Shown here: positions 3,141 to 64,000 of the stretch, piece after piece
Numbering within the stretch: the stretch's first letter is position 1
Layout of the letters: the number at the start of each line of letters is the position of its first letter
Origin: Fragilaria crotonensis
Lineage: Eukaryota; Bacillariophyta; Fragilariophyceae; Fragilariales; Fragilariaceae
DNA length: 64,000 nucleotides
Assembly: GCA_022925895.1 (NCBI GenBank)
Contig: JAKSYS010000116.1
Location: 50,937 to 114,936 of the forward strand
Direction: 5' to 3'
The notes under the pieces: generated by a model
Database searches by the model: none
What the model saw: only the letters and a program-made list of their open reading frames with translations
What the model was told of the DNA's origin: nothing
Position numbers and translations under genes: made by a program

Positions 3141-3864
3141 TCTTCAAGCAAAAAATCTTCAGCTGAGAGGGGAATCAACCCAATGTGGAGAGACCAAAAA
3201 CAGAAACAAACAGCTGATGTACTCGTAACTCAACGAAAAGAAATAGAATGTTGGCAAAGGAGAAAGCCGCACTGAAAAGCGCCATGGGGAAATGGAATGC
3301 CAGAAGATGTGGCACGTCACAATGCTGTACAACGAATACGAGTACTCCAGTACAACCTACAAATACCGCATACCTGGGACCTACAGGTATGGTACATGTA
3401 GGACATTTGACAATTTATGATGCTATATGCATATATAAAACATATAACCGCTCTGATGTGATGAGTCCGGTTTCCCGTGTAGTACAAGTACTCCAGTAGA
3501 ATGTAAATCCTTGGTAGTACGGTAGAGTACAACGGAGCCGCGGGGTATCTACTATTGGAATGTCGTGCGCGGTCTACTGTGGTATGATACACTTGTACCT
3601 TGTACAGTACCCCCTCTAGAGTCTGAAACCGTTAATTGCAGGACCTTCCTGCGATCATATTCTCGCTCTTGTGGTACCTGGTACTAGTATGCATACTTGT
3701 ACTAGTAGTACAAGTACCTGGTACTGCGGTATGTCATACAATATTGTGTTCTCTGGGGTTCGTGGTAGGCGATACAATACATGTACAAGTACCCGGTAAC
3801 AATAGTAGTACACTATCATAGTAACGAGTACTCCAGTAGAACCACAACTCACAACCGCCAAGAC
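3141..3864. other. Intergenic spacer, GTAC-rich
   Basis: No supported gene. It contains repeated short palindromic words such as AGTACTCCAGTA (3341, 3487, 3829) and GGTACCTGGTAC (3673, 3713). Before the copia insertion this stretch would have been the head-to-head promoter region between the USP gene (minus) and the fucosyltransferase gene (plus). Confidence 0.6.
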
Positions 3865-4325
3865 TGTCGAGAGCTACTGTGCTACTGCCACATTGTCGAG
3901 TGCTACTGTACCATCCGGACAGTACGCGAACTACAACGGTAGCAGTTCCCAAGCTATCTGTTCTGTCGATGCCAACCTTGCTGACCAAATTGGAGATGGT
4001 TGGACAACCATTATTGGGAAACATAAAAGGAAGGACCAGGAAAGCAAAGAAGATAAAGTTCCCACGGCAGGAATGAAAGTGCAGCGTGGGATTGATTAGT
4101 TGTTCTTGGAATGAACAAGACTGCAACTGAGGAAAAACTTAAGAAGACTATTCTATGAATGGGAATGAAACTACATAATGTGAACAAGGAAAATATGGAA
4201 AGAGAATAACAACAACAATAAGCTCACAATTTGAAAACCTACTATATTAGTACTGTTGTCTATTTTACTGTCTACAGGGATTATTGTACGAGATATCTCG
4301 AAAAGGAACTCGGAATTATTTAACA
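3865..4325 (+). repeat. 5' LTR of copia element
   Basis: 461 bp, starts TG and ends CA, identical to the 3' LTR except C at 4065. The first part can be read as protein in the frame used by pol at the 3' end (VESYCATATL...), a sign that the pol C-terminus is encoded inside the LTR. Confidence 0.95.
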
Positions 4326-4359
4326 CGTTTATAAACGGTCAGTTTATATCCAAGGCAAG

Positions 4360-5340
4360 ATGGTGGACGAAACGGCTGAATCCGGGAGTGGGTTTGGAAC
4401 TACGGTCCGCGCATTTGCGTTCGACGGCGACGAAGCTAGATACCGCCATGGGAGGGTAAGACACTTGCGCTCGCCAGCTCGAAGGATTTTGCTCGCACTA
4501 ACCAGAGTACCGGAACGGCACTAACGGTTGAACAGTTTGAGTATGGAGAGGTCGAAGTCACGCCAGCGACGGCGGCTACTACGGGCGGCACGGCTGCCGC
4601 TGCAGTCATGCGTCCGACAACAACGGCAGAGAACCGGAAGTACCTGGCAAAGGCAGCAGCGTGGACATATTTGGTTGCGAGCTGCACCGACAAGGCCTAT
4701 GCACTTATTGAACGGTGCGAAGGGGATCCGTACAGGGCATGGTCTATACTACAAAACAAATACTGTGCAACGGATGCGGAAGAAAATTACCCCGAACTGG
4801 ATCAGGCATTCAGCGAGTGCAAACTTGCTGGGACGCAGAAGGACCCAGAACTTTGGTTCAATGACTTGGACCATTTAAACATGCGGCTGGCAAGAATCAA
4901 CTTGAAGTATCAGAAGGACGAACTCCAGATGAAGAGCCACATGATGACAGCAATGTCCAATGACTACGAGAGTGTCATCGTCAAGTTCAGAGGCGACCTA
5001 AATGATACTACGCTGGTTAAGTTGCGTAAGGAAGTTGTACTTCAATATAAGTCCCTAATCAAGGCAGGTGGCGGCAAAACCACATCGGAATCAGTATTGG
5101 CCACATCAACCTCTAAGACACCTTGGAAGAAGTTCAAGGGAACTTGCAGGAACTGCGGCAAGATTGGGCATAAGGCACATGAGTGTCGATCCAACAAGGT
5201 CGAATCAACGGATGAAACCACGAAGAACTCTGGTACGTCGGGGGCGATAAGTCACATGTGACATATACAACTGCCAGCAGAAGGGCCACTTCGCGAACAA
5301 GTGTCCAAACCCTAAAAGGCAAAATCAGATGCCACGGAGA
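4360..5340 (+). pseudogene. copia gag-like region, frameshifted
   Basis: Capsid/nucleocapsid part of the retrotransposon. The first ATG after the 5' LTR is at 4360. That frame runs about 54 codons and stops at 4522. The true continuation starts in another frame near 4450 (reading WEGKTLALASSKDFARTNQ) and stays open to 5261, so one base appears lost around 4447-4452. A CCHC zinc knuckle CRNCGKIGHKAHEC lies at about 5143-5190. A second knuckle-like segment, NCQQKGHFANKC, follows after another frame change near 5255. Such Gag proteins package the element RNA in cytoplasmic particles. As it stands the frame cannot give an intact Gag. Confidence 0.85.
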
Positions 5341-8300
5341 ATATGAATATGTTTGTCAGCGTTACGGTCTCGGATGATATGTCGGTTCTGTATCCAAGGT
5401 GGACACTCTGAGGAATGGCTCCTCGATTCGGGTGCTACGTGTGGGTTACCTGAGTAAAACCTATATGACAGATATGAAACCATCGAATCTTCAAATCACT
5501 ATCGAAATGGTGATAAAGTTTCCACGCAAGGCCAAGGCACGGTCATGCTAACGGACAAGCTTGGGCAAACAATTGTTGACGGATGTCTACTACGTCTGAC
5601 ATTTACGAAACATATCGTCAGTATGAGAAAACTGATCGATGATAACTGGGCGTTCCACGTCGCGGATAAGACGGCGTTTGTCTTCTGATTCTACGAAGGG
5701 CACGGTCAAGTTGGACGAAACGACAAAGACATGTGTACTACTTCACTGGTACTCGAAAGGTAGATAATGCCAATAATCCGCTCGCGCTCAGCTTGACAAC
5801 TGCCCCAGTCACTTTGACATCAACATCGCGCACAGCCTCCTGGGCATCCAGACATGAAGACGGTTACTGCTATGGCTAAAGAACATGGTTGGACCTCACG
5901 GGATCAGTGCAACCATGTGGTTCTTGCGCTGGCCAAGGCTCGAGCGAGGCGACCCGAGTACTAAGACAAGGCCAAGCCAGGAAAGACTCTTCTGATGTTT
6001 CGGGACCATATTCGACTCCTAAATCAAAACAAATACTGGCTCAAGATCGTGGATGACTATACGCGATACAGTTGGTTCACTTCTTACCTCGCAAGAGTGG
6101 CATTCAAGATTCCATTGTTGAAGTTGATTCAAATGAACAAAGCCGCTGGAAAACCAGCTGATATCTCCGTTGCATGCCGGAAACGATCTATGTGCAACAG
6201 TTATGTGCGGAGAACGACATTCAGTTGGAAATGACTGCTCCCAATACTCCCCAGATGAATGGGGTCGTGGAAAGAAGCTTTGCCACATGTCGAAATCGTG
6301 CTTTCGCCACTATGTACTGTGCGCGCTTTTCATTGGCTACTCAGGGTCTTCTATGGCCGGAAGCCGTGAATACTATCACCAAGATTGGGAACAGCCTTCC
6401 AAGACCGGGACTGGCGTTGGACCCACACAGGGCTTGGTACGGAAAGGACGCGGTGACGAATCGAATCATCGGTCATCTTCAACCTTTTGGCAGGATTGCC
6501 TACGTCACGAACAGAGAGAAGCTCAGGGCCAAGCTGGATGCCCGCTCAAAGAAATGTGTCTTCGTCGGCTATGCTCAAGACCATTCGGGCGATACTTACA
6601 AGTTCTACGACCCAGCAACTAAGCAAACTATCATGTCTCGTGACGTACATCAGTGGATGGAATGGCACGGACGCATCACAGCAACCGATGACATGGATTT
6701 GTTTACCGAACTCGAGAAACTCAAGACGGATTCGATTATACTGCCAGCGACGGCAGACAGTACGATTTTGTCAGACGAGGACTTTCCGGACGATAGTGCC
6801 ATGCCGGATCTCACATCACGTTCTTCGATCGCGGAGGACAACCCAGAAGTACCTGTCCCCACCGATGTCGCCGCTTCTGCGCGGAGGAATTTGACATCAG
6901 TCTTTAATGAAGGGGCAGTAACTCGCTCACGTCCTCGCCAAGATGTCAGTCACAGAAACGACGACACAGTGGAGGAAAGTAAAAGTAACTTGGAGGAATC
7001 TGTCGACTACCTCCTCGTACTGAATGCGTCACTGGAATCTGATCCAAAACCGGGTGTCCCTAAGAATTATAAAGAACTTATCAAGTCAAAGGACATACAG
7101 TGGTTGAAGTCGATGCAAAACGAATTGGGAAACTTCCTAAAAAGAGGCGCTTGGGAATATGTCCCTAGAAATAAGATACCCAATACACGCAAGCCACTCA
7201 GATGCCGATGGTTGTTTAAAGAAAAGCACGATGGTACGAAGAAGTCACGCTTGGTAGTACGCGGGTACGAGCAAGAGCCTGGTGTGGACTATGTGGAATC
7301 TTACTCCCCACTCGCTACAAATACTACGGTAAAGGTGGTACTGGCTATGGCCCTATACTATATGGGATACTTCGACGATTGGGTCACGGACATGATCGAT
7401 GTTGAAGCTGCCTTTTTAAATGCATTATTGGACACGGATGTCTTCATTGAAATGCCTGAGGGCTTAAGGGAACTGCTTTTAAGTCAAGGAGTAACCCTCG
7501 GAGATGTCATTATCAAGCTACTACGCGCCCAGTACGGGCTGGTACAAAGTCCAAGACTCTGGATGGAATTGTTCTCCAAGATCCTTGTGTCTATCGGGCT
7601 TAAACAATGCAAAACTGACCCATGTCTGTTCTGTCTATTCGACAAGAATGGGAAACTACTGGCTATCGTGGTTGTGTACTGCGATGACTGCCTAATTACC
7701 GGACGCGCTAAGTCAGTGGCAGAAATCAAGGCCGGAATCTCTAAACAAGTCAAGATAGAAGATCTTGGAAAACTGTCGCGCCATCTCGGCGTCGACTACA
7801 AGTTTGGTCGTGACGAACATGGGCCCTATATTCTGTCCTCCATGAATGAGTATCACGAATCAATGATCAGAGACTTCGAGAAGGACATTGGAAGTTCTCT
7901 CAAGACGTTCTCGACCCCGGGCGCAGCTGTCACACCGCCATTGCGTTCCACCCCAGAAGACGAGATCATCCTAAACGAAGAGTACCGCTCCTACGTTGGA
8001 AGGATTATGTTTGCGTGCGGTAAGACGGAGCCGACGCTATCGAATGCGTGCAGGGAATTGACCTCGCATCTAACTGCACCAAACAAGGAACACTGGACAG
8101 CCCTCGGACACTTGATGGGCTATATTAAGCAAGGAACGAACCTCGGTATCAAGATGCGAGCGCCTAAGGATACACGTGTGGTTGCGTTTGTCGATTCGGA
8201 TTATGCGTCGGATCGAAACGACCGGAAAAGCATCTCGGGACACTTGGTGACAATTGGCGGATGCCTGTCTCGTGGCAGTCCAAGAAACAGACAGGTGTGA

Positions 8301-8676
8301 CATTGTCCTCGACGGAAGCCGAATTTGTCGCAATGAGTATGGCTGCTACGGAGATCAAATTCATCGTGTCCCTCTTGACGGAAATTGGCAATGGCCCTCC
8401 GGTAATGCCAAGTATTCTACGAGAGGATAATACCGGCGCTATCTTTATGGCGAAGAACACGGCTATCGGTCAACGCACCAAGCACGTGGACATCCGGTAC
8501 CGATTTGTTAACGACATGATTCTGTCGAAAGAACTTTGGGTCCAACATATCAGGAGTGAGGAAAACCCAAGCGATACGATGACGAAGAATCTACCATTGT
8601 CTCTATTTGGAAAACATGCTGCTCAGATCACGGAAGGTCTATTGGGCAATTTGTACGATCCACAGAACACGGAGGA
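5341..8676 (+). pseudogene. copia pol region: protease, integrase, RT, RNase H; frameshifted
   Basis: The protease active-site motif DSGA is at 5425-5436. The integrase zinc-binding His segment (HR...LGHPDMKTV-like) is near 5830 and the core start VDDYTRYSW near 6050. Several stops and shifts lie between 5340 and 6170. From 6174 to 8300 one frame is open: the integrase end, then reverse transcriptase with RCRWLFKEKHDG, DVEAAFLNA and the catalytic YCDD at 7677-7688 (YVDD is usual). RNase H starts VAFVDSDYASD near 8190. A break at about 8265 (one C missing in TGCCT) splits it from SWQSKKQTGVTLSSTEAEF. The second frame then continues through the 3' LTR to a stop at 8909-8911. Confidence 0.88.
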
Positions 8677-9137
8677 TGTCGAGAGCTACTGTGCTACTGC
8701 CACATTGTCGAGTGCTACTGTACCATCCGGACAGTACGCGAACTACAACGGTAGCAGTTCCCAAGCTATCTGTTCTGTCGATGCCAACCTTGCTGACCAA
8801 ATTGGAGATGGTTGGACAACCATTATTGGGAAACATAAAAGGAAGGACCAGGAAAGCAAAGAAGATAAAGTTCCCAAGGCAGGAATGAAAGTGCAGCGTG
8901 GGATTGATTAGTTGTTCTTGGAATGAACAAGACTGCAACTGAGGAAAAACTTAAGAAGACTATTCTATGAATGGGAATGAAACTACATAATGTGAACAAG
9001 GAAAATATGGAAAGAGAATAACAACAACAATAAGCTCACAATTTGAAAACCTACTATATTAGTACTGTTGTCTATTTTACTGTCTACAGGGATTATTGTA
9101 CGAGATATCTCGAAAAGGAACTCGGAATTATTTAACA
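8677..9137 (+). repeat. 3' LTR of copia element
   Basis: 461 bp, one substitution from the 5' LTR. Its end lies 169 bp upstream of the chosen start of the fucosyltransferase gene (70 bp from an alternative ATG at 9208), so its promoter-like content could influence that gene. Confidence 0.95.
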
Positions 9138-11545: not shown

Positions 11546-13291
11546 TTATTGATGATACAGATGATTGAATTCTTCGAAACCGGGTGGAGGTGTACCGGTC
11601 TCGCACCATCCCGTATATGTAATTTCCTTAGTTGTCGCATTGATTCCAACAAACTGGAGGTACGTTTGTAATGGTCTAGCAGTCCCCATTCCATACTGTT
11701 CAACAGCTGTGAGCAAATTCTTTGGTTTCATCATATCCTTGGTAGCCTCAGGGTATCCAAGCTGGTACTTGACTCGATTCAAAACAAGTGCCTGCAATGG
11801 GTTGTGTACACCAGGGGTGAAAGTGCGGTGCACAGACTCCCAGAATTTAGGTTTGTGCCTTCTCACATAAATATGTCCAACCACGTTCTGAACTGGAGAG
11901 AAGATATCGTACCCTGCTGTCCAAAGGCGCGTGCTCATAATGATTTCCTCACCCATAAAAATCCATGGTAAGAAAGGATCAAAAGGTACTTCCTTAAGGA
12001 AATCGGCATGAGCAACAAAGTATCCAGCAGCAGTAAAGGGCGCAAAGCGAGGGGTTTCGACTTGCACACGGTCATACTGACTGGCACCCTCGAGACGGAT
12101 TATTTGACTCTCCAAATCACTGTTAGCAAAGACTGGACCGCAAAGTCGAGCCGCAGGCTTCTTGGCCATTGCTGCCAAATCTGCCAGATGCGAAGGAGGG
12201 TAGTGACTCAAGACTGGCTTCTTAGATGGAGCCTTCTTGAGCATGTCGATGGATATGGCATCCCAGTCCTGCAAGAAGGTCATGTGCTAGTAGACAGAGC
12301 AACAGCAGTGAGAAGTGGAGAATGCCAAAGAATGAAAGAAGTAATGCATACTTACAGCATCAGTCTGCATGAACCAATTCTCGCCATACCAAAGTTTAGA
12401 TGCGAAATAACGAGCTGCATAAGGGCCCAACGATTCGGGTTCGTCAATATCAAGCGATCGGACATGTCCCTTTGCACACAGCTCCCTTCCCTCTTCAGAT
12501 TCACAAAATGACTTCTTACAATCGTCATCAGGTGGAACATCCTCCATCCCTCCGCCCGTCAAAACACCACTCTTGCAATCTGAGTGGCAATTCTGTTGAA
12601 CAATCCCTATGTAGAGTTTCTCTGGATTCTTGGCTTTGCTAAACGCCCACTTCACGGTGTTTAAGCAATTTTCATCGCGATAGGTGGCAAGACTCAAGAA
12701 GATACTACCATCATCGCGACGCGTTGGCATTCTCTCGAGGTAATCCCGATCCCACAAATACAAGGTCTTGACTGTTAAATCGTGGTATGCATTCCAAATA
12801 CCAACATGGGATTCATGCTTGACAACCGCCAGCGCCTCGTGCAGGGTATGAATCCAGTTACTCAGATAGTCCACAATCTCCTCTAGCGTCATGGGCGGTT
12901 TGTCCGATCCGCCGCCGTGGCCGAACACACCAGTATTCCCTTGGACGCCCCCATGAAGCAATTCCTCCACCGTTTCGGTTCCGGCGCGAATTTCGCCCAA
13001 ACGCTCCCCAACAATTTCACCACTCTCGCGCAACTTTGACAATCGAGCCGGCATGTGATTGGATGCCAAAGACTTCAGTGCGGATTTGAGTTGTTGACGT
13101 TTTTCCACCACGGAATGTCGGAGCGAACCTTTGAGGGCGAATTTGGAGTTTGACGGGACATCACCAGGTAAATCGTCAGTTACCGTCGCCAAGTAAACAA
13201 TGAGAACAATAAATATGGCGAGGATGGCATACAGTGCAGGCCCTTGGGCGGAGAAAGAAGACCCTGGACGGCGAATGGCTGTCATTGTCAA
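11546..13291 (-). CDS. GlcNAc-transferase, GT60 / Skp1-hydroxyproline type
   Basis: 558-aa type II membrane protein. Exons 12356-13291 and 11546-12286; intron 12287-12355 (GTAAGT...ACTAG) restores MQTDAHMTFLQDWD, the DxH-type metal/sugar-nucleotide site of this family. Membrane span at about residues 21-39 (YAILAIFIVLIVYLATV). The catalytic domain begins IFLSLATYRDENCLNTVKWA, with KNPEKLYIGIVQQNC and the later WIFMGEEIIMSTRLWTAGYD and VVGHIYVRRHKPKFWES. These match the GlcNAc transferase family (Pfam GlcNAc, PF11397, by memory), whose best-known member in Dictyostelium adds GlcNAc to hydroxyproline of Skp1 in the cytosol. This protein has a signal anchor, so a Golgi substrate is more likely. 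It converges on the fucosyltransferase gene with a 215-bp gap. Confidence 0.88.
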
Positions 13292-13842
13292 TTCGTCACA
13301 ATTCTACTGTCACGAAACCTGTGATTCATTTAATGATGACCATGGACCACATACAATCATACAATAGTGTCGCCGTTTCGCCGTGTGTCGTGTGGAATTA
13401 ATAGCATTGGCCAACGGGTATAGGGTACTTGTACGACGTCTAGAGCAAATGGTACTATCGGTAGTACGGGTACTAGTACTAGTACCAGTGCCGGAGAGCG
13501 TGCACTGGACTCGGGAGTCGACGAGCAACAGTACAGCAACAACAGTGCACAAAGTATTCCGAGTACACCCGTACTGGTGACCGATCTACTTAGAATACAC
13601 GGCGTTCATGAACTATACTACAAGTACATGTACCTGGTACTACATTGCTACACTGTACTCCCACGCGTCTACTACTAGGGCATTGTGTAAGGGTGGTACT
13701 GTAGCTCGGTCGGAACAATACTCCAGTCCTGTAATATGCCTCGTTGCTCACTGGACACTGGAGTACTTGTTCGCCTTGCTGCACGCAACGAAACGGACCC
13801 GGCACCCGGCACCTGGCTCCTCGCGCTTAATCATAAACGCAT
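13292..13842. other. Intergenic spacer
   Basis: No gene seen. Contains tandem GTACTAGTACTAGTACCAGT (about 13466-13490) and TACCTGGTAC (13631), the same GTAC-type words found in other spacers. Serves as 5' region of the GT60-type gene. Confidence 0.5.
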
Positions 13843-14368
13843 TGTTAAATCACCGTACTAGTAACCGTACAGTAGCCTCGAATGAATACTCGTCTGAAAT
13901 GTGACAGTAGATGTCCTCTACTCACTTTCTATTCCTGTAAATTGTGAGCTTAATCTGTTTGTTAAACTACTTCTAAAGTCATCATTCAATCACTGATGAG
14001 AGCTTGAAAAGCTCTCCAATCAGACCACAAAAGACCTCATCCAGTAGGTTCCACACAACAAATCTAATCTTGAAGAACTGACACCAAATCAGACTTCACA
14101 GTAGATTCTACACCTGTGAAGTCTTCATTCCTTCACGGGTGATGCCTCCTGGGATCTCTCAGTAGATCCCTGCATGCCGGGAGGTCTTCCAGCCTTTCTG
14201 GTCTTGACCTTCCTTGTGACTTCTGTCCATTTGTCAGCATCCAAGAGAGCAGCAGAACAGAAGCTATTGCTACCGTCGTCCACAGTATATGGTGCCACCG
14301 GTACAGTCGCACCGGTCGCTTCAACCGTAACACCGTGAGCCTCGACAGTAGCACTGTAGCTCTCGACA
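13843..14368 (-). mobile_element. Solo (or truncated) copia-type LTR, diverged
   Basis: Read on the minus strand it begins TGTCGAGAGCTACAGTGCTA, nearly the same as the start of the 461-bp LTR at 3865. It shares AAGCTCACAATTT inside and ends ATTTAACA. At 526 bp it is longer and otherwise strongly diverged, so it is from a related family or an old copy. No clean target duplication is visible. The first ~80 codons are open in the same frame as the pol tail in the intact element and give a comparable peptide (VESYSATVEA...ATVP...CSAALL.AD). It lies 24 bp from the first possible ATG of the RidA gene, in opposite orientation. Confidence 0.75.
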
Positions 14369-14392
14369 CGTCGCCCTACGTGGATTGGCGTC

Positions 14393-16491: not shown

Positions 16492-16492
16492 A

Positions 16493-17258: not shown

Positions 17259-17260
17259 TA

Positions 17261-17964
17261 CGTCGTACTCGTAGCATTGATGAGAGGCATTTCAACACCT
17301 TCAGTTTCACGAACACAATACACCCAACTTTGTACTACGAGCACGTAGAAGGCTGCACTCCCCTACTTGGGTACTGCCAAACACAAAGTGTCATTTAGGA
17401 TGCAAGATTGGATGGGTTTTTCAATGACCTTGAAAACAGAAATGCCAGTCGCAAGACGCGACGTGGATATCTACCAGAAGAAATTGGACTACACTCAGGG
17501 CTCCCAGTGCCTACTTTTAATTTTTAACGTCCATGTTGCTCGGACTAACGCGTTCTGTTTACGTCGTACAGTACAGAGTTCGGACAGTACCCCCCGAGTA
17601 TGACACATATATACAACATACACATATATTCGTATGACATATACTGTACTGGTAGACTGTAGGATGCAAACCGAGGGGTCTCTACTCTCTACAGGTACCT
17701 GGTACAAGTACCGGTAGACGGCTGCATAGATTCGTCCTTCATCTAGGAAAGGAATCTCATCAACAATTTATGGAGTAATACATTGTAGCAGAATCTCCCA
17801 ACGAACCAACCTTGGTTCAATGAATCTTCTCGGCAAGCCAGCATGATCCCTCTGAAGTTGGCGAAGATGTAAGGTAACACGTATTGATGACCGATCCTGG
17901 TCGTTTGAGGAAACAGGTAGTATTGCGCTGACTATACAACACAGTCGCATCTGGTTCCCCGTCA
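17261..17964. other. Spacer upstream of PhoD gene
   Basis: No supported gene. A GTAC word GGTACCTGGTAC is at 17694-17705. An upstream exon carrying the signal peptide of the following PhoD gene may be hidden here: the frame is open without ATG from about 17857 to 17964. Confidence 0.4.
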
Positions 17965-24689: not shown

Positions 24690-25924
24690 CTACTAGCAGG
24701 AAGAAACAGCAAAATGTGAGATGGACAACAACAAAATTTATATAATATTAAAAAAAAACCCGAACAATTGTAATGAAAAATGTGATGGAGCAATATGTAC
24801 TGAGTACTGTATACTCCTGTATGTACTGTATATCATGTTAACTGTACAGAAGACGGGAGACGGGAGTGCTTTGATGCACGAGTCTTCACTTGCGGGCTCG
24901 CGGGACGAGGATCCTATCGTTAATACCAAGTTCAGCTTGAATGTCTACACGCAACACGGTATCATATGAAGTTTGACATAGGAGGTAGTACCAGATACTG
25001 TTTGTACAGTATACATGCCTCCAGATGAGTCAGTTGATGCACTGGCACTTACCTCGCTGGACATGAAGAGGATGTGTCGAAAGTTGGATTACAATTCAAT
25101 GACTACATAAGGAGCTGCCCCTATGGCACCTTCGGTTTTTGGTTGTGATGTTGGAAGAGGGCTACTCTACCGTAGGTTGATTCAATCCGACTAGTATCCT
25201 GCGTAATGGGAGATCCGTGCAGACCGTTGATGTTGTCGAGAATAGATGGCCTGCCACAACCTTCGGTGTGTTCGAAAGGATCAGCATTTGTCCCTACAAC
25301 GGTAGTAGTAGCACTCCAGTGGGAGTACTTGTATGTCATATGACCTCGTATCATAGTGAACTCAGACTGAGGATATCACGACGAGTGACGTTTAATTACA
25401 GTTTTTCCTTCGGGGTAAAGATAGCTACATAAATCGGTTTAGAGATGTCGTCAGGATAAGAATGTCGTTTGTTCCTTTTCCTCCAAGGTAGAAGTAGTCT
25501 ACTGTCGTACCAGTATTCTCTATTATCATACGACGTATTCTGCAATCTGGAGTCGTACGGCACAGTGCACAGGTGGCTATGGTACTTTCTGGTTGTGGTG
25601 TGCATCTGTAATCTGTACATATGTCATATATAGAGTTCAAGTACGACTGCTTCTTTCGTACTGTAGTGCGTGGAGTGCTCCAGTACTGTACAGGTATGAA
25701 AACGACACATACCCTGTGGCAACCTTCGTGTTGAGCGATTGATGCTCGTTTATTATGCATGCGTGCATATGTCGTACAAAGGTGTTCTGTCGTTGAGATA
25801 GAGGTGCGCTGTTCTCCTGTCGCTTCTCAACAAATCTCTCCATACTCAAGAATCACGAACAAGGAGTAAATCACATTTCTATACGTAAAGCTGACAGAAC
25901 TATTGCGTGATCTAGCACTACAGT
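24690..25924. other. Intergenic spacer between divergent genes
   Basis: AT-rich, with poly-A/T around 24740-24765. It should hold the missing first exon and promoter of the LSD-like gene, and the promoter of the C2 gene. No frame in it is convincing. Confidence 0.4.
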
Positions 25925-26833
25925 ATGACCAGATATCAGCTCACTATTGAAGCAGACAAGCTCAAGCGAGTCTCGTCCTTGAGAGCCGGAAGCCCTTACG
26001 CGGTGGTCACGGTGACTGGAGGTTCGCGTGAGGGCGATGTGTTGGGAATGACGGAAGCGTTGGACACTTTAACGCACCTGCGATGGAGCACTATAGTCTT
26101 CATAGAAACCGATCCCTCCACTTATCTCCCAATTTCTGTGGAAATTTTTGACAAGCAAGAGAATGGCAAGGACGAGAAGAAAATGGCAGTAGCCAATTTT
26201 GAAGTGACTTCGATTTATCAGAGTCCCGTGCATACGCAGTGCGAAGAGCTGAACGGAGGCACCATGTAAGTAGATGACTTATGAGCCGCTGCTTCTTTCA
26301 AAACGATGTATTCACCTTGTGATCGATCCAATTCAGTGTGCGAGCGACCTGTATTGAAAGTGTTCAAGGAAGTTTAGATCAAAAAAGTTTCGCTACGCTT
26401 CAATTTCGTCTCTTGGATGTTAAAAACATTGAATCTGGAATCTTGGGTCTAGGCCGAACCGATCCATTCGTTGAAATTCAAAAGAAGAACGTTGATCCAG
26501 ATGTTGGTATTGTCCAATGGATAACTGCCCATCGAACCGAACACGTGATGGACAATCTGAATCCAGTATTCAAGGCATTCGACTTGCCTGTTGAGGCCTT
26601 ATGTTATTGCAACGAAGAGTGGCCGCTCCGATTGGTTGTTTGGGATTGGCAGAGGAACGGCAAGCACCGTACTCTGGGATGTTATGAGACTTCTCTCAAA
26701 GATTTGCAATACAAAGGAAGCCAAGGGTGGGAACGCCGATCGGAGCAGTGCATTGCCCATTTCGATTGAAGGCGCCCCGACAACCCTCGGTCTTATCATT
26801 GTCCTGAAAGCGGAATTGAATGGTGATCAATGA
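25925..26833 (+). CDS. Double-C2-domain protein, copine-like
   Basis: Small protein with two C2 domains, the calcium-dependent lipid-binding fold, likely acting at membranes. Exons 25925-26265 and 26337-26833; intron 26266-26336 (GTAAGT...TTCAG). C2A starts at residue 4 (YQLTIEADKLKRVSSLRAGS) and contains PISVEIFDKQ. C2B starts LQFRLLDVKNIESGILGLGR, with the metal-binding TDPFVEI, then MDNLNPVFKAFDLPVEALC and LRLVVWDWQRNGKHRTLG. The reading frame as given stops at 26769 after IAHFD. One base fewer in GGG 26725-26727 continues into ALPISIEGAPTTLGLIIVLK, a normal C2 end, with stop at 26833. Copines carry two N-terminal C2 domains and a vWA domain; no vWA domain follows here, so this is either a short paralog or an independent C2 protein. 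Confidence 0.75.
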
Positions 26834-30049: not shown

Positions 30050-30145
30050 GGTGTTCCCAAAAGAAGGAAGACAATTAATACGTAAAAGTAGGATGGTGTT
30101 GTTCAGTTGTGGTTGACGTTGAGCGATCAAGTCGCTTCTGATCAT

Positions 30146-30970
30146 AGCGAGATCTGCGTGAGTTCAGAGAATAAAAACTCTTCACCGGCCTATCGTACAA
30201 GTACTTGTAATATCTGGTACTTGTACCATTTGGAGCACACAAGTCTACCGGTCGGTACTTGTACCAGGTAGTGTATGCATTATGCATGTGTGCATGCATG
30301 GTATGACAGTACCTGGTACAACTATTGTACCAAGTACATACAGTGTGTACATACACTGTACGCACAGAAAGGAAATATGTCCCCTACTGCTGTACGAGGT
30401 AGGTCTACTGCTATTGGATCCGATAGAATGCAAAGAAATGACGTCAAGCCGTACCAATCAGGGTTTCGATTAGATTCCGTCAGTTCCTTGCATTCTAATC
30501 GAAACCCTCTCCCAATGTCACTCTGGTGAACGTCAACAAAATGCCATTCGTTTATCCCTTGAGGACAGTGCAAACTCGAGGGAGGTGAAGTGCGATTGTT
30601 CATCAGGGCGGCAGTCCGGGCTATGGGCTATGCGTTTTATAATGTACTCCCACGTCGACTTGGACCTCGAAGCCACACCAGTGCCCAAACTGGAGTCTGT
30701 GACAACGCTACCCTGAACCCGGTTATGGTGAACTCCACGTCGTCAGGATTGAACTGGAAAAGGCAGTCCTTCCTATAGGTTATCTATGGTGGTCCTACTA
30801 GGAGTGTACTCCGAGAAAGTACTAGTCTGTCAGAATTAAAGCGTTGAAGAGTCATGTCTCCGAATATACCACAGTTCGTGGAATTCAAGTATGCAGGTAT
30901 ATGTTTGCCCTCAAAGATGGCACTATACATGAAAATCATTAACCTATGGCTGCTCCTCTACAAATCTAGT
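30146..30970. other. Intergenic spacer with GTAC words and a hairpin
   Basis: No gene supported. GTAC-rich words lie at 30190-30370 (for example GTACCAGGTA 30261, ACCTGGTAC 30311). A perfect 15-bp inverted repeat is listed separately. Confidence 0.5.
30460..30508. repeat. Perfect 15-bp inverted repeat, 19-nt loop
   Basis: AGGGTTTCGATTAGA at 30460-30474 pairs perfectly with TCTAATCGAAACCCT at 30494-30508. It lies between two genes on the minus strand, roughly 460 bp from the helicase stop. It has no U-tail and eukaryotic terminators are not hairpins, so a structural or small-RNA role is only a possibility. Confidence 0.8.
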
Positions 30971-33607
<2,637 letters not shown>

Positions 33608-34600
33608 TCAGCAAACGGAAGCGCTTAATTAGGAGCTGGTTTCACTATATCACGTCCTTAATGATCTAAGGGGTAAGGGGTGAGGAGTGAGGATGTGTAG
33701 GATCTCAATCAAGATATCCCAACTGTTGAGTTGAATGAGTTGTTCTTGTTCTTGTTCGTAGCCAGGTATCATACGATGTAGAGCTTCCAAGTATTTCTCT
33801 CGTTGCCGTCAGCGTACGATTTTTGTTTGATTGGAGGTGAGCGATATTGGTGGACGACAGACGTTGGTAAACAGAGAAAGAAGAAAGAAACCAACAAAAA
33901 CCGTTTAAGACGTCAAGGAAGGTGCAGTGTGCTACATTAAGCTAGTAGTAGAAAAAGTACCACAGTACACTATCTTAAAAAATCTTATAAATGTATGAAT
34001 GTGAACATATGAGTGTAATCCGAGCTACGAGTACTAAGATCTAAAAGTAAACTGGGTATTCCTTTTTGAGTTTTGTGTTTTTTTTAATTCCTTTTTGAGT
34101 TTAAGGGTCCGATTAGGTTTCACCAATTTGACGTCAGCCCCACGTCACAGTACTGATGTCTTCATGTTCAACGTACTGACATACAGTACTACAGTAAGAC
34201 AGTAACATACTGAGAGCATCCAATACTCCGTAAGAGATGTAAGGCATAGCCGCCGTATGTCATACAGGTACTAGTACCAGGTAGTAATGTAGAGCATAAA
34301 GGCCGCGAGCCTCGACACAACGTCTGACGTTCTGTAAGCTTCTTTTGTTGCTCGTGTGTCATCAATCGACTTTGTGCGTCACCGTTCACAATGTCGGATG
34401 TCACGTCAGAAATACACAATATTCTGGTGCACTACCTGTATAGAAGCTACTGGTACCAGTTCCTAAAATTTAATGGAGAGTATGCACGATACATGCTACT
34501 CTACTATGATAGTAGAGTAGTACTACAAATCAGTCTACAGTCGACAGTGTACAGTCTACAGTACAACTAGAGAGCGGAGCTACAAGTACCTCAGTCGAGT
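33608..34600. other. Intergenic spacer
   Basis: No gene seen. AT-rich, with a GTACTAGTACCAGGTAG word near 34267. Promoter side of the helicase gene. Confidence 0.45.
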
Positions 34601-53882: not shown

Positions 53883-54673
53883 CTCAGTGGTGTCCATGAC
53901 ACAATCCGTAGTACACTTTTAACAAGCAGCCATCGCGGACTCCTGCTCCTTGACTTCGTACCCCAGGTACATGGAGAAAGGGCTTCTAATAATGCTGTAG
54001 GTGTTCGTGAACGAAACACTCTAGTAGGTCATCATTTTTAGCTTTGGCCACTTTCTTGTGGGCGCATTGAGAACCTGCGAAACAATCAGCAGAAGCCTTT
54101 CCGTTGTCACATCGTTTGCGATTTACCCTGTACATGTAGGTAAGTTGTTATTTGAATATGAAGCGGAACTATGCGCCGAGTTCAAGTTAAGCTTATTGAA
54201 CTACATTATACTCTATTGGAATACTGGAGTACTGCGGTATTGGTATAGTAGTAGTAGCACTTGTACTGCTCGAACCCTGAGCTCACGTAGAATACTCGTA
54301 CTATGTCATTTTGATGTCATGTTGCATGCATTTTCCTGCCTGCGAAACCAGTTCGTTTTACTTATGACATCATGTTGTGTGTCATTGACTATTCACCAAT
54401 CAGATGCCAGGATTATTGCTTTTCCCATGACGACAGTGTGGTTTGCATTCGTTGTAGGTGATTTTCAGTCATCCACCAATCGAATTACGTATATTTGAGA
54501 AAGATTCAAGTCCTTGCTTGACCTCAACCAAAATCCATCATCACAACGCGATTGTTTAACAGTTTCTTCCCGCGCCGTCGCACAAAAGCGTTCTGCTCGA
54601 AGATCGCTGTGAGGCCACAAAGAAGCAATCCAGCCCTGCTTCAGTTGCTACTACTACCTACATCACTCACAAC
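53883..54673. other. Intergenic spacer
   Basis: No gene seen. A GTAC-type word is near 54225 (GGAGTACTGCGG). Confidence 0.45.
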
Positions 54674-55054
54674 ATGCCCCGTATTCTGAGTCGCACGGCC
54701 TTGCCAAACATGAAAAGGGCGCAAGGGACGAAGCGTAGTTACCATAATAACTTGAATAGCAACTCCTCCTCAGTTGCCCCCAGGTCCCAGCCTCCCACAC
54801 ACGCTGGCAATGCCTCGTGTATCAATCTCATGGAAGCGCTTTCACTTTATGACAGCTCGTCGTCAACATCATCCTACTATGCTGGCGGCAATTCCCCGTC
54901 AGCGTCTTCAACGCCGCCGCATCAACAACAAGATACATCGTCGACAGATGACTGGGGTCAGTACGTGGATGTATCTGTTCATTTGACTGTATCTCAATCC
55001 GTGGGAACGAACGACTATCGCCGTTCTGAAAGTTGGATTAACTTCTTTTCGTAA
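54674..55054 (+). CDS. Small Ser-rich hypothetical protein
   Basis: 126 aa, MPRILSRTALPNMKRAQGTK onward. Rich in Ser/Asn/Gln (SYHNNLNSNSSS, SSSSTSSYYAGG) with a DDWGQYVDV segment near residue 92, then SESWINFFS at the end. No recognised domain. A GTACGT donor at about 54962 and an ATCAG acceptor at about 55096 could instead splice DWGQ to a second exon reading HQKPFLNVYMATWDFKIPFE (to about 55294), in which case the present end is intronic. Both forms are possible. The preceding 5' region looks like an ordinary leader. Confidence 0.5.
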   Translation: MPRILSRTALPNMKRAQGTKRSYHNNLNSNSSSVAPRSQPPTHAGNASCINLMEALSLYDSSSSTSSYYAGGNSPSASSTPPHQQQDTSSTDDWGQYVDVSVHLTVSQSVGTNDYRRSESWINFFS

Positions 55055-56514
55055 ATATGAGTAATTGGACGGCCACTTCAATATTTGCGAATCAGACATC
55101 AGAAGCCGTTCCTCAATGTTTATATGGCTACCTGGGACTTTAAGATCCCGTTCGAATCGCACCGCAACATGAATCAGCCGTATCTGTTTTGTAGCGCACT
55201 ACGCACACACACCAACAACCCATTTCCCCGTCCTGCAGAAAGTATCAGTCGCAATTTGGTACTAACAGAAACGCTAAAGCCACAAGTAAATTGAAAGTTA
55301 GAAAGTGATAGCCAAAGACAGTACATCTGCAACCTTTATAACTGTTTTCTCCAGTGTATTCCAGTAACGTGATTCCAGTGCGCAACGGGTACATTGGCTT
55401 GTTTGTCGTGGCATAGAAACTGCTGGCGATTTCTATTGCCTTGCACTAACATTTGCGCAAGTACTAAGTCATCGTTTCTACGAGGTTGTTCATGTTACCC
55501 CTGTCCCACTAGTAGAATATGCTGGAGTAATTGTTGTCATGTTGGGAGTTGGGACCAAAGTCGCGAAATGCGAGACGGCTACTACAAGTACTTGTACTTT
55601 GTACTACAACAATAGCGACCAAAGGAATTATGACCGAGGATGACCGAAAATTGGAAACGGCCCTAGTTTTGCACCCAGCCGAGTTAACTGTTAACCCGTG
55701 TAATGGTGGCTTCCTATAGCCTATAGGAAGCCACCATTACACGGGTTAACAGTTAACTCGGCTGGGTGCAAAACTAGTAGGGCCGTTTCTAATTTTCGGT
55801 CATCGTCGGTCATAATTCCTTTGGTCGCTATTGAGTAGTAGAGCGTCGACTATTGTCATAGTAGGTAGAAGCGTAGTAGCACTAGTTTACAGTGAATTCG
55901 AGTACTTGTACCATGTACAGTACTACCGTAGTACGAGTAGGGGTACTCCATTATTACATAAATATGATATAGGAGTATCATAGTACTCCGAGTACCTGGT
56001 ACTGGTACCTGGTACCTGGTCCAGTACTCGAGTACCAGGTACTCGGTACCGTTGCTGGAGGCTGGAGGATTCGGAATTGGGAAAGGACAAAGTACAGTAC
56101 AAGTACCAGGTACCAGGTACGCACACACTGATTTTTGTTTGTCATGATCAACTCTGCGAGTGCACGGGTATCACACACCTGGGTTGTGGGTTGTGGCCAA
56201 ACAAACGGTGCATTACAGTTAATACTGGATACTGGTACCGATACTGTAGTCTTCGGAAGATAGGGATGTATGTTCATACTGTACAAGGTACAAGTACGTT
56301 GTACTTGTACCTGGTAACATGTAACCGTGAATTTGGAGGCCCACTCTCCCCGCACAGTCGCACAGACCAGAGTCATCCTCCTTTTTGACCGGAGAGCGGT
56401 AAGTCACGAAGGAGCTGCGCTGCGAGCTGCGAGTATGATACGCGTGAGTGAAAGTCGTAGATGCGGCAACGGGCACAAAACTAGTTTCTATCTGAACATA
56501 TTTCAAATAACTCC
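55055..56514. other. Spacer with palindrome and GTAC-rich block
   Basis: No gene. Contains the 222-bp palindrome (55611-55832) and a dense GTAC-word block at 55985-56120 (TACCTGGTACTGGTACCTGG), plus another at 56281-56320. Confidence 0.5.
55611..55832. repeat. 222-bp near-perfect palindrome (foldback)
   Basis: Left arm 55611-55718 (108 nt) and right arm 55722-55832 (111 nt) are reverse complements separated by GCC. Only two mismatches and one 3-nt gap (CTA) are seen. The arms start AATAGCGACCAAAGG and meet at GGCTTCCTATA. No target duplication is visible, and the sequence is not an obvious member of the TE families here. Confidence 0.95.
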
Positions 56515-57702
56515 ATGTCAACACAAGGAGATCCAATTGCCATGGCGTCGGCGAGTGGTGCCATGTCATCCATGATGGGATTGATGGGTTCAGTGTAAGT
56601 CCTTCGTTGTTTGTAGACAGTGAGAATGAATAGCCGTCCGTTGCCTGCATGTTTCCAACGACGCTATTGGAGCCGTAGGAATTGGTATTAGTATCTACGT
56701 AAAATTCAATTCTGCCAACAACTCGAAAGGGAGCAATGACCAAGAAGTCCATCGATTCAGATGAAGGCCAAATCCTTTGGTTGATAATGCTGTTTAAACA
56801 ATGCGGTCGCTACATTGACCTTTGACAACTCAAAAGGCCAGATGAGGTCGATCGTGAATTATCGTTGCCCGAGTCGTGCCTTTCTGCGTCATTCCAGATG
56901 TGCTATGATCATGTTTTGTCCGTGCTGGCTCTGCTAACTCCATTCCCTCTTCAATTATGTCCAACTTCACAGTAAAGAGAAGTGGGACGCGTCTGGTGGT
57001 AACGAAGCCTTATCTCGCCTCTCGGCGTCGATTCCGCAGGGTACCAAGGATACCTTGGGGTCTGCTGCCAAAAACTTGTTCAATAAGGACCACTTGCGAA
57101 GCCTCACGGTTTTCTTTGGGATTGGAGAAGAGCGTGCATTTTACTTGGAGAAATCGCCATCCCTACTGACAGCAAGATTGCGACACAACTTCACTTTTTT
57201 CTACCTCAATTACATGGTTGTGTTTGGGATTCTGTTTGTCCTGACCATGATTACAAGCATCACAACCATGATTGGCCTGGTCATATTGGGAGCCGCTTGG
57301 CTGTTCGTCATTCGAGCCTCTAGTGAAGGGCATTTGCAGATTGCCAGTAAGTATCGTGGTCCAACCCGTGATCGACGGCCTATCACTTTGTCGCACATGA
57401 CTCTAACTGTCATGCTTACAACCTTCCGTTTTCTGGCAGGCTTGAAGATCCCGCAAAAACAGGCAACGATCGCGATGGCGACGATTAGCGCGTTGGTTCT
57501 CTTTTATCTTTTGAGTCACATTTTCTGGTGGACTGCTGGTTCCGGCGGTTTCTTGGTGGCCATGCATGCGTTCTTCAGAGATGCCAGTATGCATCAGGAT
57601 CAAGAGGATCGCGTTGAAATGCACGGAGATTTGAGTCTAGATGAGAACGCCTCCTTTCTTAATCCAGTGCAAGAGAAGACCCCTATGATGAACCAAGTGT
57701 AA
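56515..57702 (+). CDS. PRA1/Yip3-family membrane protein (prenylated Rab acceptor)
   Basis: Membrane protein of the PRA1 family that binds prenylated Rab GTPases in ER-Golgi traffic. Exons 56515-56594 and 56973-57702 (269 aa); the 378-nt intron is the longest in the window (GTAAGT...TTCACAG). The N-terminus MSTQGDPIAMASASGAMSSM is polar, then KEKWDASGGNEALSRLSASI, then the family core: HLRSLTVFFGIGEERAFYLE, a helical membrane pair LNYMVVFGILFVLTMITSIT and IGLVILGAAWLFVIRASSEG, a second pair around MATISALVLFYLLSHIFWWT, and a cytosolic acidic C-terminus. Typical PRA1 proteins are about 180-220 residues, so this one has an extra N-terminal and C-terminal tail. Hydrophobic pairs come in two sets, as expected. 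Family recognition is from the overall pattern. Confidence 0.8.
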
Positions 57703-58488
57703 TGTTCATTATTGTTTGACATTCTGCGCGACTGTCAATCTATGCTTTTACTTTTATTAACACATTCGAATGACCAAGATCGCAATGATTGTTGTAATCC
57801 TCAATAGCCTCGTAGGATTTTGCAACTTTCTCCAATGCTTACCTTTTCTGTGTGGAGGTCGAACCAATCTTCTTCGCCGCCAATCTCTCGTTTATTGGCT
57901 TACTTGTCAGCGTCCTGGTCGACACATCCTCACAAGTTTCTTGATTCTGTTTGTCGTTTATCGTCTGTTAGAAGACATCTCAAATCTGCTGTAGGCTGCG
58001 AACCATTCCCTCAGCGCGGCACCAGATCTCGTTGCGATCGATTCAGGCAATTTCGATCGCGATACCTTTTTGATGCAGATAGTGCCAGTGAACAAGGAAC
58101 GAGAAGTGCCTGAGTCTATGTACTGTATATTTGTATGCACAGTGTATTGGAACTCCATACTCCAGTCCAAGCACAATTGTACCATGATCACATGATCACA
58201 CATATACGCACATATATAAGCCTTGATAGAATTGCAGTCAAGTACTCCAGTATGTCATAGTCGTACGTTGTACTGGCGCCTTTTGCCTGTCGTTCATTGC
58301 TCTCAATCCCAAGATAAGCATTTGAAAGCATCTCTCAAGCGCGTACCTTGGCGAGAACTTGAACCCGCAAGGACTGAGAAATCTATCTTGACAACATTCA
58401 CTACACTTCATCGTTGGTGCTTTGTTGTCCTTCCTTGAGATTGCTGTAACACCAATTCATCCTCATCATCAGCAACGACGAGAACAAC
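57703..58488. other. Intergenic spacer
   Basis: No supported gene. AGTACTCCAGTA word at 58242. Promoter side of the Y14 gene. Confidence 0.45.
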
Positions 58489-58956
58489 ATGTCTTGGGGA
58501 CGCGACAGTGGGCAGCAACAACTACGTGACAGCGACAACAGTAGCAGCAGTAATAACAATCAACTCGACACTGAACCATCCTCTACGAATCGTCCTCCTG
58601 CGTCCCGTGGAGGCGGTCCGGGGCCCATAAAGTCTGCCAATGGCTGGATTATTTTCGTCACGGGAATCAACCCTCCCGCCACGGATGGTATACATGCCGG
58701 CGATGAAGAAGAGAATTGGATCGACGTGTTTTCAGAATTTGGTCAAGTTTGCAAATTCACCATGAACCGTGATCGACAAACGGGTGCATGCCAGGGGTAT
58801 GCATTAGTGGAATTCGCAGAATATACTGAAGCCCAGGATGCGATCAACGCGTTGCATGGGAAAGAAATTTTGGGGAATGTGGTCGGAGTGGATTGGGCCT
58901 TTGTTCACCCCACCACAGCGAGTAGAGGGCGGCGGACAAGTAGGAATAGGAGATAA
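58489..58956 (+). CDS. RBM8A: Exon junction complex protein Y14 (RBM8A)
   Basis: 155-aa RNA-binding protein with a single RRM; it forms the core of the exon-junction complex with Mago and marks spliced mRNA in the nucleus. The N-terminal ~45 residues are Ser/Asn-rich. The RRM runs about residues 50-140: GWIIFVTGINPPAT (RNP2 region), EENWIDVFSEFGQVCKFTMN, DRQTGACQGYALVEF (RNP1 region, with the GYALVEF that Y14 proteins share), AINALHGKEILGNVVGVDWAF. The C-terminal tail SRGRRTSRNRR is a short RS-like end. Length fits the family (about 160-175). It converges on eIF3a with a gap of only 146 bp. Single exon. Confidence 0.92.
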   Translation: MSWGRDSGQQQLRDSDNSSSSNNNQLDTEPSSTNRPPASRGGGPGPIKSANGWIIFVTGINPPATDGIHAGDEEENWIDVFSEFGQVCKFTMNRDRQTGACQGYALVEFAEYTEAQDAINALHGKEILGNVVGVDWAFVHPTTASRGRRTSRNRR

Positions 58957-59102
58957 CTTTCACTAGATTTATTTGCCATCCTATTTAGTGCGTCTTCGTT
59001 GGAGGGTCGTAGATCACTCCGATTGAATGCAGACAATTGCATAAGTTATCATCATCCTATCCAATAGGGTAGATCATGCACCTTCTATGCTGCAAGATCA
59101 AT

Positions 59103-62100: not shown

Positions 62101-62291
62101 TTGTGAAGAGAAAGACAAAGGTCGAGGTACGTGATCATTATTTGCTCATAAGTGGGGCTCCACGTTCGGTGACGTCTCGAACTCAGAACTTCATGCAGCA
62201 AAAACAACGCAGCGTCAGATTGCTTAATGGACTGTAGCTCCAAAGCACGACGCAGCGCCAGTTCGGGCTTGTGGAAGAACGTAGATGACAT
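59103..62291 (-). CDS. eIF3a: Eukaryotic initiation factor 3 subunit A (eIF3a)
   Basis: Large scaffold subunit of eIF3 on the 40S ribosome. Exons 61602-62291 and 59103-61526 (1037 aa); the 75-nt intron (GTACGT...TCCAG) restores NGKVRGWEGWSTESIELH. Order of features: N-terminal MSSTFFHKPELALRRALEL helical repeats, KRRTEFRRLCDMLRLHL (PCI approach), the PCI/winged-helix segment near residues 400-530, a long charged coiled-coil region of EKEKLKKIQKEMESMEKKK type (residues about 570-870), and a C-terminal RNA-binding tail with repeats FDDRRRDDRG, related to the DDRGPRRG-type repeats of animal eIF3a. It is somewhat shorter than animal eIF3a. Clear orthology by order and content. Antisense frames in the low-complexity C-terminal part are artefacts of GATC-rich repeats. 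Confidence 0.95.
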
Positions 62292-64000
62292 GGTGTTGTT
62301 GATGGCTGGTCACAGTCGTGGTCTGTTTTTGGAGTTGCAAGATGCTGGGCAAAGTAACCTTTCCTTCTAGAGATTGGGAGGCGATCCTTCGTGCTGTGAG
62401 TGCGAGCGTCGTGCAGCACAGTCCACAGTACATCCAGAGTTGATCGAAAAAGTCAGCTCTGGCCAGAAGTGTGCGGTTTGGAGGGAGAACTGAGCTCATT
62501 GCCTATCGCTTCTTCGTACGGCGTGCAGACCATGGCTACGACAGAATGCAGCGTGCCAAATGGCAAGCGTAATTACAAGGAATCTGGGAAAAATGCAGTA
62601 CCAGGTACAAGTAGTACTCCAGTACTTTTGTACTGGAGAATCACCTACTGTAGCTGTTATGCAGATGTACCTACCGGGGTAGCTGCGCCATGTTATGCGT
62701 TCTGACTTCTCATCCAAGAATAGGCAACGTTCAGCAGGGACTGCATGCTTGTACACACACAAAAAACGAACTACAGTATGAGCACGGAACAAGTCTCCCT
62801 TGGCCTCTATTCTTGATCGCAATAGTGCATCCGTATAGACTACTTGAGTACTCCAGTGGAGTTGAATGTGCAATCCATACCAATGACACTAGCTTTTTCG
62901 TCGGTTCTTTGGCTCAACTTGTGCGAGGTTGCCGGGCCTATTACTAATACCTGGCCATCATCCCCTAAAATAGTTTACAAGCAACGCTGTTGCGCTCGCG
63001 TTGCGGGTTCAGCAGCGCGATGAACCATAATGATGTAGTAGGGGGTCGTATTTTTTTCTAAAGTTTTAATGTCGAAATGATGAGTGTGGGTGTTGTAGTG
63101 ATGCTTGCAACATGAAATGCGTGGAGAATCTTGACATTCGGCGATTGCCGAAAACAAGTCTTTAGCGGGCGATGAGTTGATGATGAGGCGTAGTGCGTGA
63201 CGAGTGCAGGGTGTATACAGGGTGAAAGTGATAATATGCGTTGGAGTACAGGGGTCGATCACATTTCATTTATGCCGAATATCATCGTATACGGCAGCTG
63301 CACTCCGAAGCGTTGTCGAAAGTGTGTTATATCTTCATTCAAGGTTGCAACGTTGGAACTCCCTGCACAGTCTTAAGGCCAACAGGAAAGTGAGTGAAGT
63401 CCGATGGTGACCATTTCACTTTGGCGCAACGCACCACCGAATTCATTACTCACTGGATGAAGAATGGGACAGGTATGACATATCCGGTACTACCAGGTAG
63501 TACCCCGTCAAAGTCGGACGCTATGAAACTCACTCCACTGTGTTGGTGGGTGATGATGATGTGAAATACTCAGTTTATGGAACAAGTTGTTCGTGCTGCC
63601 AACCGCCGACCATCATGTCGTCGGAACGCTGAGGGAGATTTGATAAAAGAATCTGCCAGTTGGTTTTCTCTGCCAGCTGCTTGACAGTTTCGTCAAATGT
63701 ATTCTAAGTACTTTGAGTACCGACAACGGGCGTCGAATTCTGCTTCGTAATCGGAATCCGTCACCGTACACCCCCCGAACAATGATATTTCTGCTAACAG
63801 TAGAAAATTCTTCAAAATGGCGCGCGACAAACGTTCTTTTTTCTCCGATTTCAGCGATCATCTCCACTTGGACCGCAAGGGATGCGTCTTCAGAGTTCAG
63901 AGGGACGAGTTGCGTCAACTTCCGAACGATTGAACGATTCCAGAGTCATGCTGGGACCCAGTCGTGCGGCAGTGAACCGAATAGTTTATCAGAGAATGAA
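62292..64000. other. Right-hand spacer, no supported gene
   Basis: 1.7 kb from the eIF3a start to the window end. GTAC words lie at 62598-62640 and 63487-63507. A short plus frame at 63816 (MARDKRSFFSDFSDHLHLDR, 38 aa) and a minus frame 63613-63918 have protein-like composition; either could be an exon of a gene beyond the window, but neither is supported. Confidence 0.4.

Follow-up and report, generated by a model that had tools for sequence, protein, structure and literature searches.

Diatoms have many transcription factors, of which few binding sites are known, and their cis-regulation is poorly known. In other lineages, GTAC is the core of the SBP-box and copper-response sites of green plants, and HIP1 of cyanobacteria is one palindromic word with thousands of exact copies in one genome, also within genes. 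Similar words have been described in oomycetes. In Phytophthora infestans, M93 (TACATGTA) and M94 (TACCGGTA) stand among the high-confidence promoter motifs, M93 with 4150 occurrences in promoters (PMC3597505). Motif-1 (TACATGTA) was found upstream of 12,070 Phytophthora genes and was considered suggestive of a homodimeric factor, with Homeobox_KN (TALE/Iroquois-type homeodomain) proteins as the suggested binders; it was not expected to be a transposon footprint (PMC3520976). On a protein array, oomycete HSFs bind TTC/GAA half-sites with gaps of 0, 1 or 2, and in the same study no combinations of motifs were over-represented in P. infestans promoters (PMC11267843).

We looked at short inverted repeats in the diatom Fragilaria crotonensis. 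The window, that is the whole stretch of 64 kb that was analysed, covers bases 50937-114936 of its contig and has a GC content of 48%. Statistics were calculated on the window together with 20 other 10-kb stretches (264 kb in all, out of 62 Mb), and five patterns were counted in the whole genome (62,107,879 bases, 881 contigs), where leftover duplicate contigs raise the counts slightly. The published draft of strain SAG 28.96 has 61.85 Mb, 879 contigs and 47.4% GC (PMC9476933). Searches of the genome also gave 61 matches to light-harvesting proteins, and diatom-type FCPI and Lhcr chains were among the ten best solved-structure matches of one of these proteins. Exon segments were predicted by a home-made method, with in-frame hexamers trained on long ORFs, which calls about 1% of shuffled sequence at score 10 and about 0.2% at score 12; a coding mask used before it was looser and marked 12% of such sequence. 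Exon segments and spacer classes replaced an upstream/downstream profile of strict ORFs, as only 40 ORFs passed.

Word content and copy numbers

An earlier note on this DNA had described GTAC-rich palindromic words as far more frequent than in a random spacer and as absent from clear exons. Both statements held. The word set given there was found as 23 exact copies in the window (GTACCTGGTAC 7, GTACCAGGTAC 4, GTACTTGTACC 4, GGTACAAGTAC 2, AGTACTCCAGTA 5 and the complement of AGTACTCCAGTA 1), all in spacers (33,395 bases; 0.04 expected from 200 dinucleotide shuffles, maximum 2) and none in exons of score at least 14 (30,612 bases). The same count against a shuffled background, which the note had proposed, gave 17 copies in the spacers of the 20 other stretches, where 0.09 were expected, and none in 71,010 bases of exon. 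At 13 of the 15 places listed in the note, the exact word was present, at most 7 bases off or inside the range given, while 34267 (GTACTAGTACCAGGTA) and 63487 (GTACTACCAGGTAGTAC) hold variants. Two of the places, 13631 and 58242, are within weak exon calls with scores of 10.6 and 9.3, which shuffled sequence reaches too. Exact copies at 30217, 54222 and 55902 had not been listed. The view that the words recur in most spacers was too wide, with 15 of the 27 window spacers of at least 150 bases between called exons containing no word of the dictionary described below (4 of 5 convergent and 11 of 17 same-strand spacers).

The reader's words belong to a dictionary of short inverted repeats comprising TACCWGGTA, CTACCGGTAG, TACTAGTA, TACTTGTA, TACTGTA, TACTCCAGTA, TATGCATA and others. 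Among the over-represented 8- and 10-mers of the 264 kb were TATGCATA, CTACCGGTAG, TACTAGTA, TACCWGGTA, GTACTGTA, TACTTGTA, TACTCCAGTA, TACTCCGTA and TATGTCATA; simple repeats and words from at least two longer repeat families in the same lists were set aside. TACTCCGTA is a doubtful member and may be a local repeat, since 9 of its 18 copies lie in a single array in L019. In the whole genome, GTACCWGGTAC occurs at 3604 places versus 73 for its reversed control, CTACCGGTAG at 2305 versus 51, GTACATGTAC at 632 versus 165, and GTACTCCAGTA at 2777 on the two strands (1428+1349) versus 39 (16+23). The core-swapped palindrome GTACGWCGTAC, in which C and G are exchanged, was found at 212 places and its control at 105. 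The comparison of 3604 with 212 places indicates that specificity sits in the core. The window is rich in GTACCWGGTAC, with 11 copies against a genome average of about one per 17 kb, whereas CTACCGGTAG is missing from it and was found in 8 of the 20 further stretches.

The clusters and isolated words of the window are listed below; none is assigned a strand.

3341..3838: word cluster of TACTCCAGTA (three), TACCTGGTA (two), TACTTGTA/TACAAGTA, TACTAGTA, TATGCATA (two) and TATGTCATA within the divergent spacer 3117-4481; its end is 26 bases short of a copia-type element's LTR
13426..13876: scattered words near one end of the divergent spacer 13241-18398, among them GTACCTGGTAC at 13630; a weak exon call covers part of them
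17567..17717: cluster with GGTACCTGGTACAAGTACCGGTAG as its last word, at the opposite end of the divergent spacer 13241-18398
24805..25926: group of nine words within the divergent spacer 24660-25936 that the earlier note had not listed
30196..30318: six-word cluster of TACAAGTA, TACTTGTA (three), TACCAGGTA and TACCTGGTA in the tandem spacer 29058-30997
34149..34285: cluster of TACAGTA (two), TACTCCGTA, TATGTCATA, TACTAGTA and TACCAGGTA, located within the tandem spacer 33431-34630
55583..56316: the largest of the clusters, with 17 dictionary words, of which five are GTACCWGGTAC, within the tandem spacer 53874-58626
58241..58259: AGTACTCCAGTATGTCATA, overlapped by a weak exon call
62598..62638: GTACCAGGTAC, AGTACTCCAGTA and GTACTGGAG
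63487..63503: variant dyad GTACTACCAGGTAGTAC

The cluster at 30196..30318 is at least 51 bases upstream of the ATG of the minus-strand ORF 29024-30145; the gene start there is uncertain, because no exon was called between 29217 and this ATG. A foldback element (55610-55833) sits within the largest cluster, near one end. An Rfam search of the window gave no match at the gathering score.

Half-sites and cores

To define the rule behind the words, all 64 trinucleotides were tested as inverted repeats with gaps of 0-6 bases in 127 spacers (116 kb). The strongest dyad of all was TAC-N2-GTA, found 141 times versus 38 expected. TAC-N1/N2/N3/N4-GTA reached 3.2, 3.7, 3.0 and 2.6 times the expectation, and at the other gaps the values were 0.87 (gap 0), 1.69 (gap 5) and 1.24 (gap 6). 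The dictionary follows the rule that half-sites TAC and GTA (or TAT and ATA) flank specific cores of 1-4 bases. Within TACNNGTA, the cores AA/TT (43 versus 5.8 expected), CG (16 versus 1.8) and TA (16 versus 2.1) were enriched 7-9 times, and GC (1 versus 1.9) and CC/GG (1 versus 3.6) fell below expectation; its members TACCGGTA and TACATGTA were counted 16 times versus 1.8 and 7 times versus 2.7 in the spacer sample. The core is thus selective, and a palindromic core is unnecessary. Symmetry beyond the half-sites is about 0.3 by the second or third outer base, where chance gives about 0.25. Dyads with four-base arms lacking TAC/GTA were found at just 1.07-1.2 times the expected number, showing that the spacers are not generally rich in palindromes. 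GTA-N4..6-TAC was also raised in the half-site test, and this excess would largely consist of identical dyads viewed from inside pairs of GTAC. Such pairs lie preferentially 5-8 bases apart, with a further rise at 13. The loose coding mask showed a comparable preference, at 5-7 and 12, which counts against a binding-site reading.

Position of the words relative to genes

Dictionary words are about tenfold rarer in exons and are rare in intron-like gaps. GTAC dyads amounted to 1.66 per kb in tandem, 1.31 in divergent and 0.37 in convergent spacers, 0.17 in intron-like gaps and 0.16 in exons, versus 0.29, 0.23, 0.33, 0.17 and 0.18 for TGCA dyads. In the same order, the TAC-dyad core set gave 1.71, 1.03, 0.84, 0 and 0.17 per kb, and TACCWGGTA 0.51, 0.09, 0.15, 0 and 0.02. 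As TACCWGGTA is not raised in divergent spacers, the contrast between spacer classes varies by word. No label shuffle out of 3000 matched the difference between tandem plus divergent spacers and intron-like gaps, whichever of three exon thresholds was applied; control words gave p values of 0.046, 0.22 and 0.38. Against convergent spacers, p was 0.009-0.018 for the words and 0.044-0.059 for reversed controls. Of the words in the window, 50 are in five divergent spacers (10.9 kb) and a single one is in five convergent spacers (2.8 kb), most of which are short; 5 of the 109 dictionary words are inside exons of score at least 14. Under the looser coding mask, 3 of 20 GTACCWGGTAC copies were scored as coding.

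Then, the two sides of the spacers were compared. The words reached 4.68 per kb on the 5' side versus 2.63 on the 3' side, and reversed controls 1.09 versus 0.71; with stricter exons, the values were 4.17 versus 2.83 and 1.06 versus 0.61. With ratios of 1.8 (words) and 1.5 (controls), or 1.5 and 1.7 at the stricter threshold, the comparison does not show a bias toward the upstream or promoter end of spacers beyond that of the reversed control words. GTACCWGGTAC did not occur on either side of the 40 ORFs selected under strict criteria, at counts too low to be informative. Asymmetric words in tandem spacers were about equally frequent in both directions, from 4/3 up to 29/28, with 14/9 as the widest split. 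They show no clear strand preference relative to genes, as expected for sites acting at the DNA level.

The words clump (dispersion 3.2), and the clusters mix different words in varying order. Clustering of identical words was not significant overall, with 207 pairs versus 191 expected and 353 of 2000 shuffles reaching 207. For single words, clumping was significant for TACCWGGTA (reached by 6 of 500 shuffles) and TACTCGAGTA (1 of 500, six copies), was borderline for TATGCATA (21 of 500), and for TACTCCGTA (0 of 500) was owing to its one array. TACTGTA clusters less than in shuffled sequence (81 pairs versus 130 expected).

Nature of the words

Taken together, we consider that the words are probably sites at which dimeric transcription factors bind, grouped in control regions between genes. 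Such a factor would have two subunits, each contacting one TAC half-site; core and gap would determine which factor binds, several sites in one control region would work together, and selection would maintain the dictionary. Of the three readings offered in the earlier note, namely relics of a repeat family, binding sites and part of a replication or silencing landscape, the binding sites came out best because of the specificity of the words, the combination of fixed half-sites with cores that may be non-palindromic, the scarcity in exons and intron-like gaps, the lack of a clear strand bias, and the presence of the same motif class in oomycete promoters. The case is slightly weaker owing to the TACTCCGTA array, the low count of TACCWGGTA in divergent spacers and the uncertain gene start near 30 kb.

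The words might instead be bound by a protein of chromatin, insulators or replication origins and not by gene-specific transcription factors. The high copy number, the intermixing of several words with no overall clustering of identical ones, and the absence of an upstream-end bias above control words would all suit such a protein. However, the density is lower in convergent spacers, and the variety of exact cores points to several factors; we regard this reading as unlikely.

The earlier note had also proposed relics of a repeat family, here understood as remains, decaying in neutral spacers, of a short palindromic mobile element that is dispersed in the genome, or of its excision footprints. 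The words are clustered, intergenic and palindromic, the largest cluster contains a genuine foldback element, one array holds half of the TACTCCGTA copies, and one-mismatch neighbours are in excess for TACTCCAGTA (59 versus 12), GTACTTGTAC (72 versus 20) and TACTAGTA (374 versus 115). However, when the 761-base heart of the largest cluster was searched against the genome, it returned itself and nine matches of 38-69 bases at 82-89% identity (one cluster was used as query, and the tool skips very common words), whereas for the foldback element 13 copies of nearly full length were found elsewhere, with five at 97-99%. Longer flanks common to the copies were not found for the one cluster tested, and different words are mixed in different order. 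TATGCATA occurs 29 times versus 2.9 expected while its neighbours stay at background (156 versus 144), and those of TACCTGGTA (57 versus 32) and TACTCCGTA (43 versus 32) accompany 41 and 18 exact copies. For TACTTGTA, neighbours are at background at the outer T and A, and the main excess is at the core, where other dictionary words lie; the excess for TACTAGTA is likewise mostly at core positions. These patterns fit fixed half-sites with permitted cores better than decay. The short matches of the largest cluster and the near-background neighbours of some words make relics a disfavoured and quite improbable explanation.

Conservation was looked at in two haplotype pairs. The near-identical pair had 0 of 8 substitutions and 0 of 23 gap columns in words. 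The usable pair had 31 word columns among 4305, and these took up 1 of its 40 substitutions and 10 of its 35 gap columns, counted in the homologous part, with non-homologous ends left out of this underpowered comparison. This pair gives no support for conservation and, if anything, speaks against constraint.

Finally, a mutational or structural process, in which hairpin-templated correction or cruciform-prone DNA creates palindromes or RNA hairpins act in transcripts, could account for dyads that are palindromic or nearly so and for GTAC recurring every 5-8 bases, similarly in the loose coding mask, but is very improbable given that a non-palindromic core is enriched like a palindromic one (AA/TT 7.4 times, TA 7.6 times), that the symmetry of about 0.3 by the second or third outer base would be too short for a stable hairpin, that four-base arms without TAC/GTA barely exceed expectation, and that asymmetric words have no clear strand bias.

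Candidate binding proteins

If the words are binding sites for dimeric factors, one expanded family reading different cores is a possible binder. The HSF family is an obviously expanded one, with 77 domain matches in the genome, including apparent duplicates and part matches. HSFs are a possible binder, although the HSE dyad showed no enrichment and the recognition helices are mostly canonical, the arginine of the helix being kept in 19 of the 20 that were read. Homeobox_KN proteins gave 4 matches, and their presence is silent on binding of these words. No match to the SBP domain was found in the genome, in a search run without a positive control. A broader proposal, which we put forward tentatively and hold to be rather unlikely, is a combinatorial half-site code in which one or a few expanded diatom factor families would read TAC...GTA, the core of 1-4 bases would name the factor, and thousands of promoters would be addressed, the code being partly a legacy of the ancestor that diatoms and oomycetes share.

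Comparison with known systems

No diatom paper naming this dictionary was found by titles and abstract openings, and the diatom papers with TACTTGTAC presumably contain it in reporter primers. Viral contigs were scanned three times for other diatom DNA and gave 1, 4 and 0 stretches; judged by composition and word counts, the first has 65% GC, and the other four have 30-37% GC and 2-5 words each.

As in SBP-box sites, a GTAC core is present, but here the bases outside GTAC are also specified. Like HIP1, the words include thousands of exact palindromes, but they are many in kind and lie mostly outside genes. Heat-shock elements share three-base half-sites, inverted repeats and variable gaps with the dictionary (PMC11267843). 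In contrast, TTC..GAA and GAA..TTC were found here at 0.76-1.22 and 0.63-1.17 times the expected number at gaps 0-6, so that TTC/GAA half-sites do not characterize the set, and TAC..GTA shows no alternation at 5-base steps.

With M93, M94 and motif-1 of Phytophthora, the dictionary has in common TAC-NN-GTA inverted repeats: TACNNGTA is over-represented (141 versus 38), TACCGGTA is exact in both, and GTACATGTAC is also raised in Fragilaria. With respect to the upstream location of the Phytophthora motifs, the words are scarce in exons and intron-like gaps and less dense in convergent spacers, but their upstream-end bias is not above that of control words. The Fragilaria dictionary differs in being wider in core and gap (1-4 bases) and clustered, with TACCWGGTA, TACTTGTA and TACTCCAGTA prominent. 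As a genome-wide dictionary that can be read from sequence alone, it supplies baits for pull-down or DAP-seq; through its overlap with promoter motifs of Phytophthora, the idea of a regulatory code shared among stramenopiles can be tested directly. On this comparison, the dictionary is not a new kind; it is a wider form of a class of motifs already known from another group of stramenopiles.

Other repeats in the window and elsewhere in the genome, and residual duplicates in the assembly

The 12-mers over-represented in the window and in 20 further 10-kb stretches of the same genome (L005-L024) revealed at least two further repeat families, interspersed or tandem. The first is centred on CCACTAATGTCG / TAGTGGTAGAAAATTATCC, and the second on CATACTCCGTAACAGACG; the latter includes TACTCCGTA, which forms an array in one of these stretches, L019. 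Two larger elements lie in the window itself.

L019, 6197-7057: array of nine copies of TACTCCGTA, spanning less than 900 bases
3865-8976: retrotransposon of the copia type, carrying parts of a reverse transcriptase and of an integrase
55610-55833: foldback or MITE-like element, an almost perfect palindrome of 224 bases

We also looked at heat-shock-type sites. Despite 77 matches to the heat-shock-factor domain genome-wide, no enrichment of TTC..GAA dyads was found in 116 kb of spacers.

Residual haplotype or recent duplicate contig pairs were found in the assembly (C58 / C416 and C327 / C268), and equal or near-equal match scores suggest that C77 / C86 and C256 / C560 are perhaps further pairs. 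Genome-wide counts are therefore slightly inflated, those of the control words included.

The arms of the foldback palindrome measure 57 bases (100%) and 56 bases (96%), the inner ones lying 1 base apart, and at least 13 near-full-length copies, a lower bound, are present elsewhere in the genome together with partial ones. The copia-type element is adjoined by a cluster of the spacer words. Its flanking repeats were reported as 300 bases at 100%, with the first 200 bases identical, and this identity points to a recent insertion.
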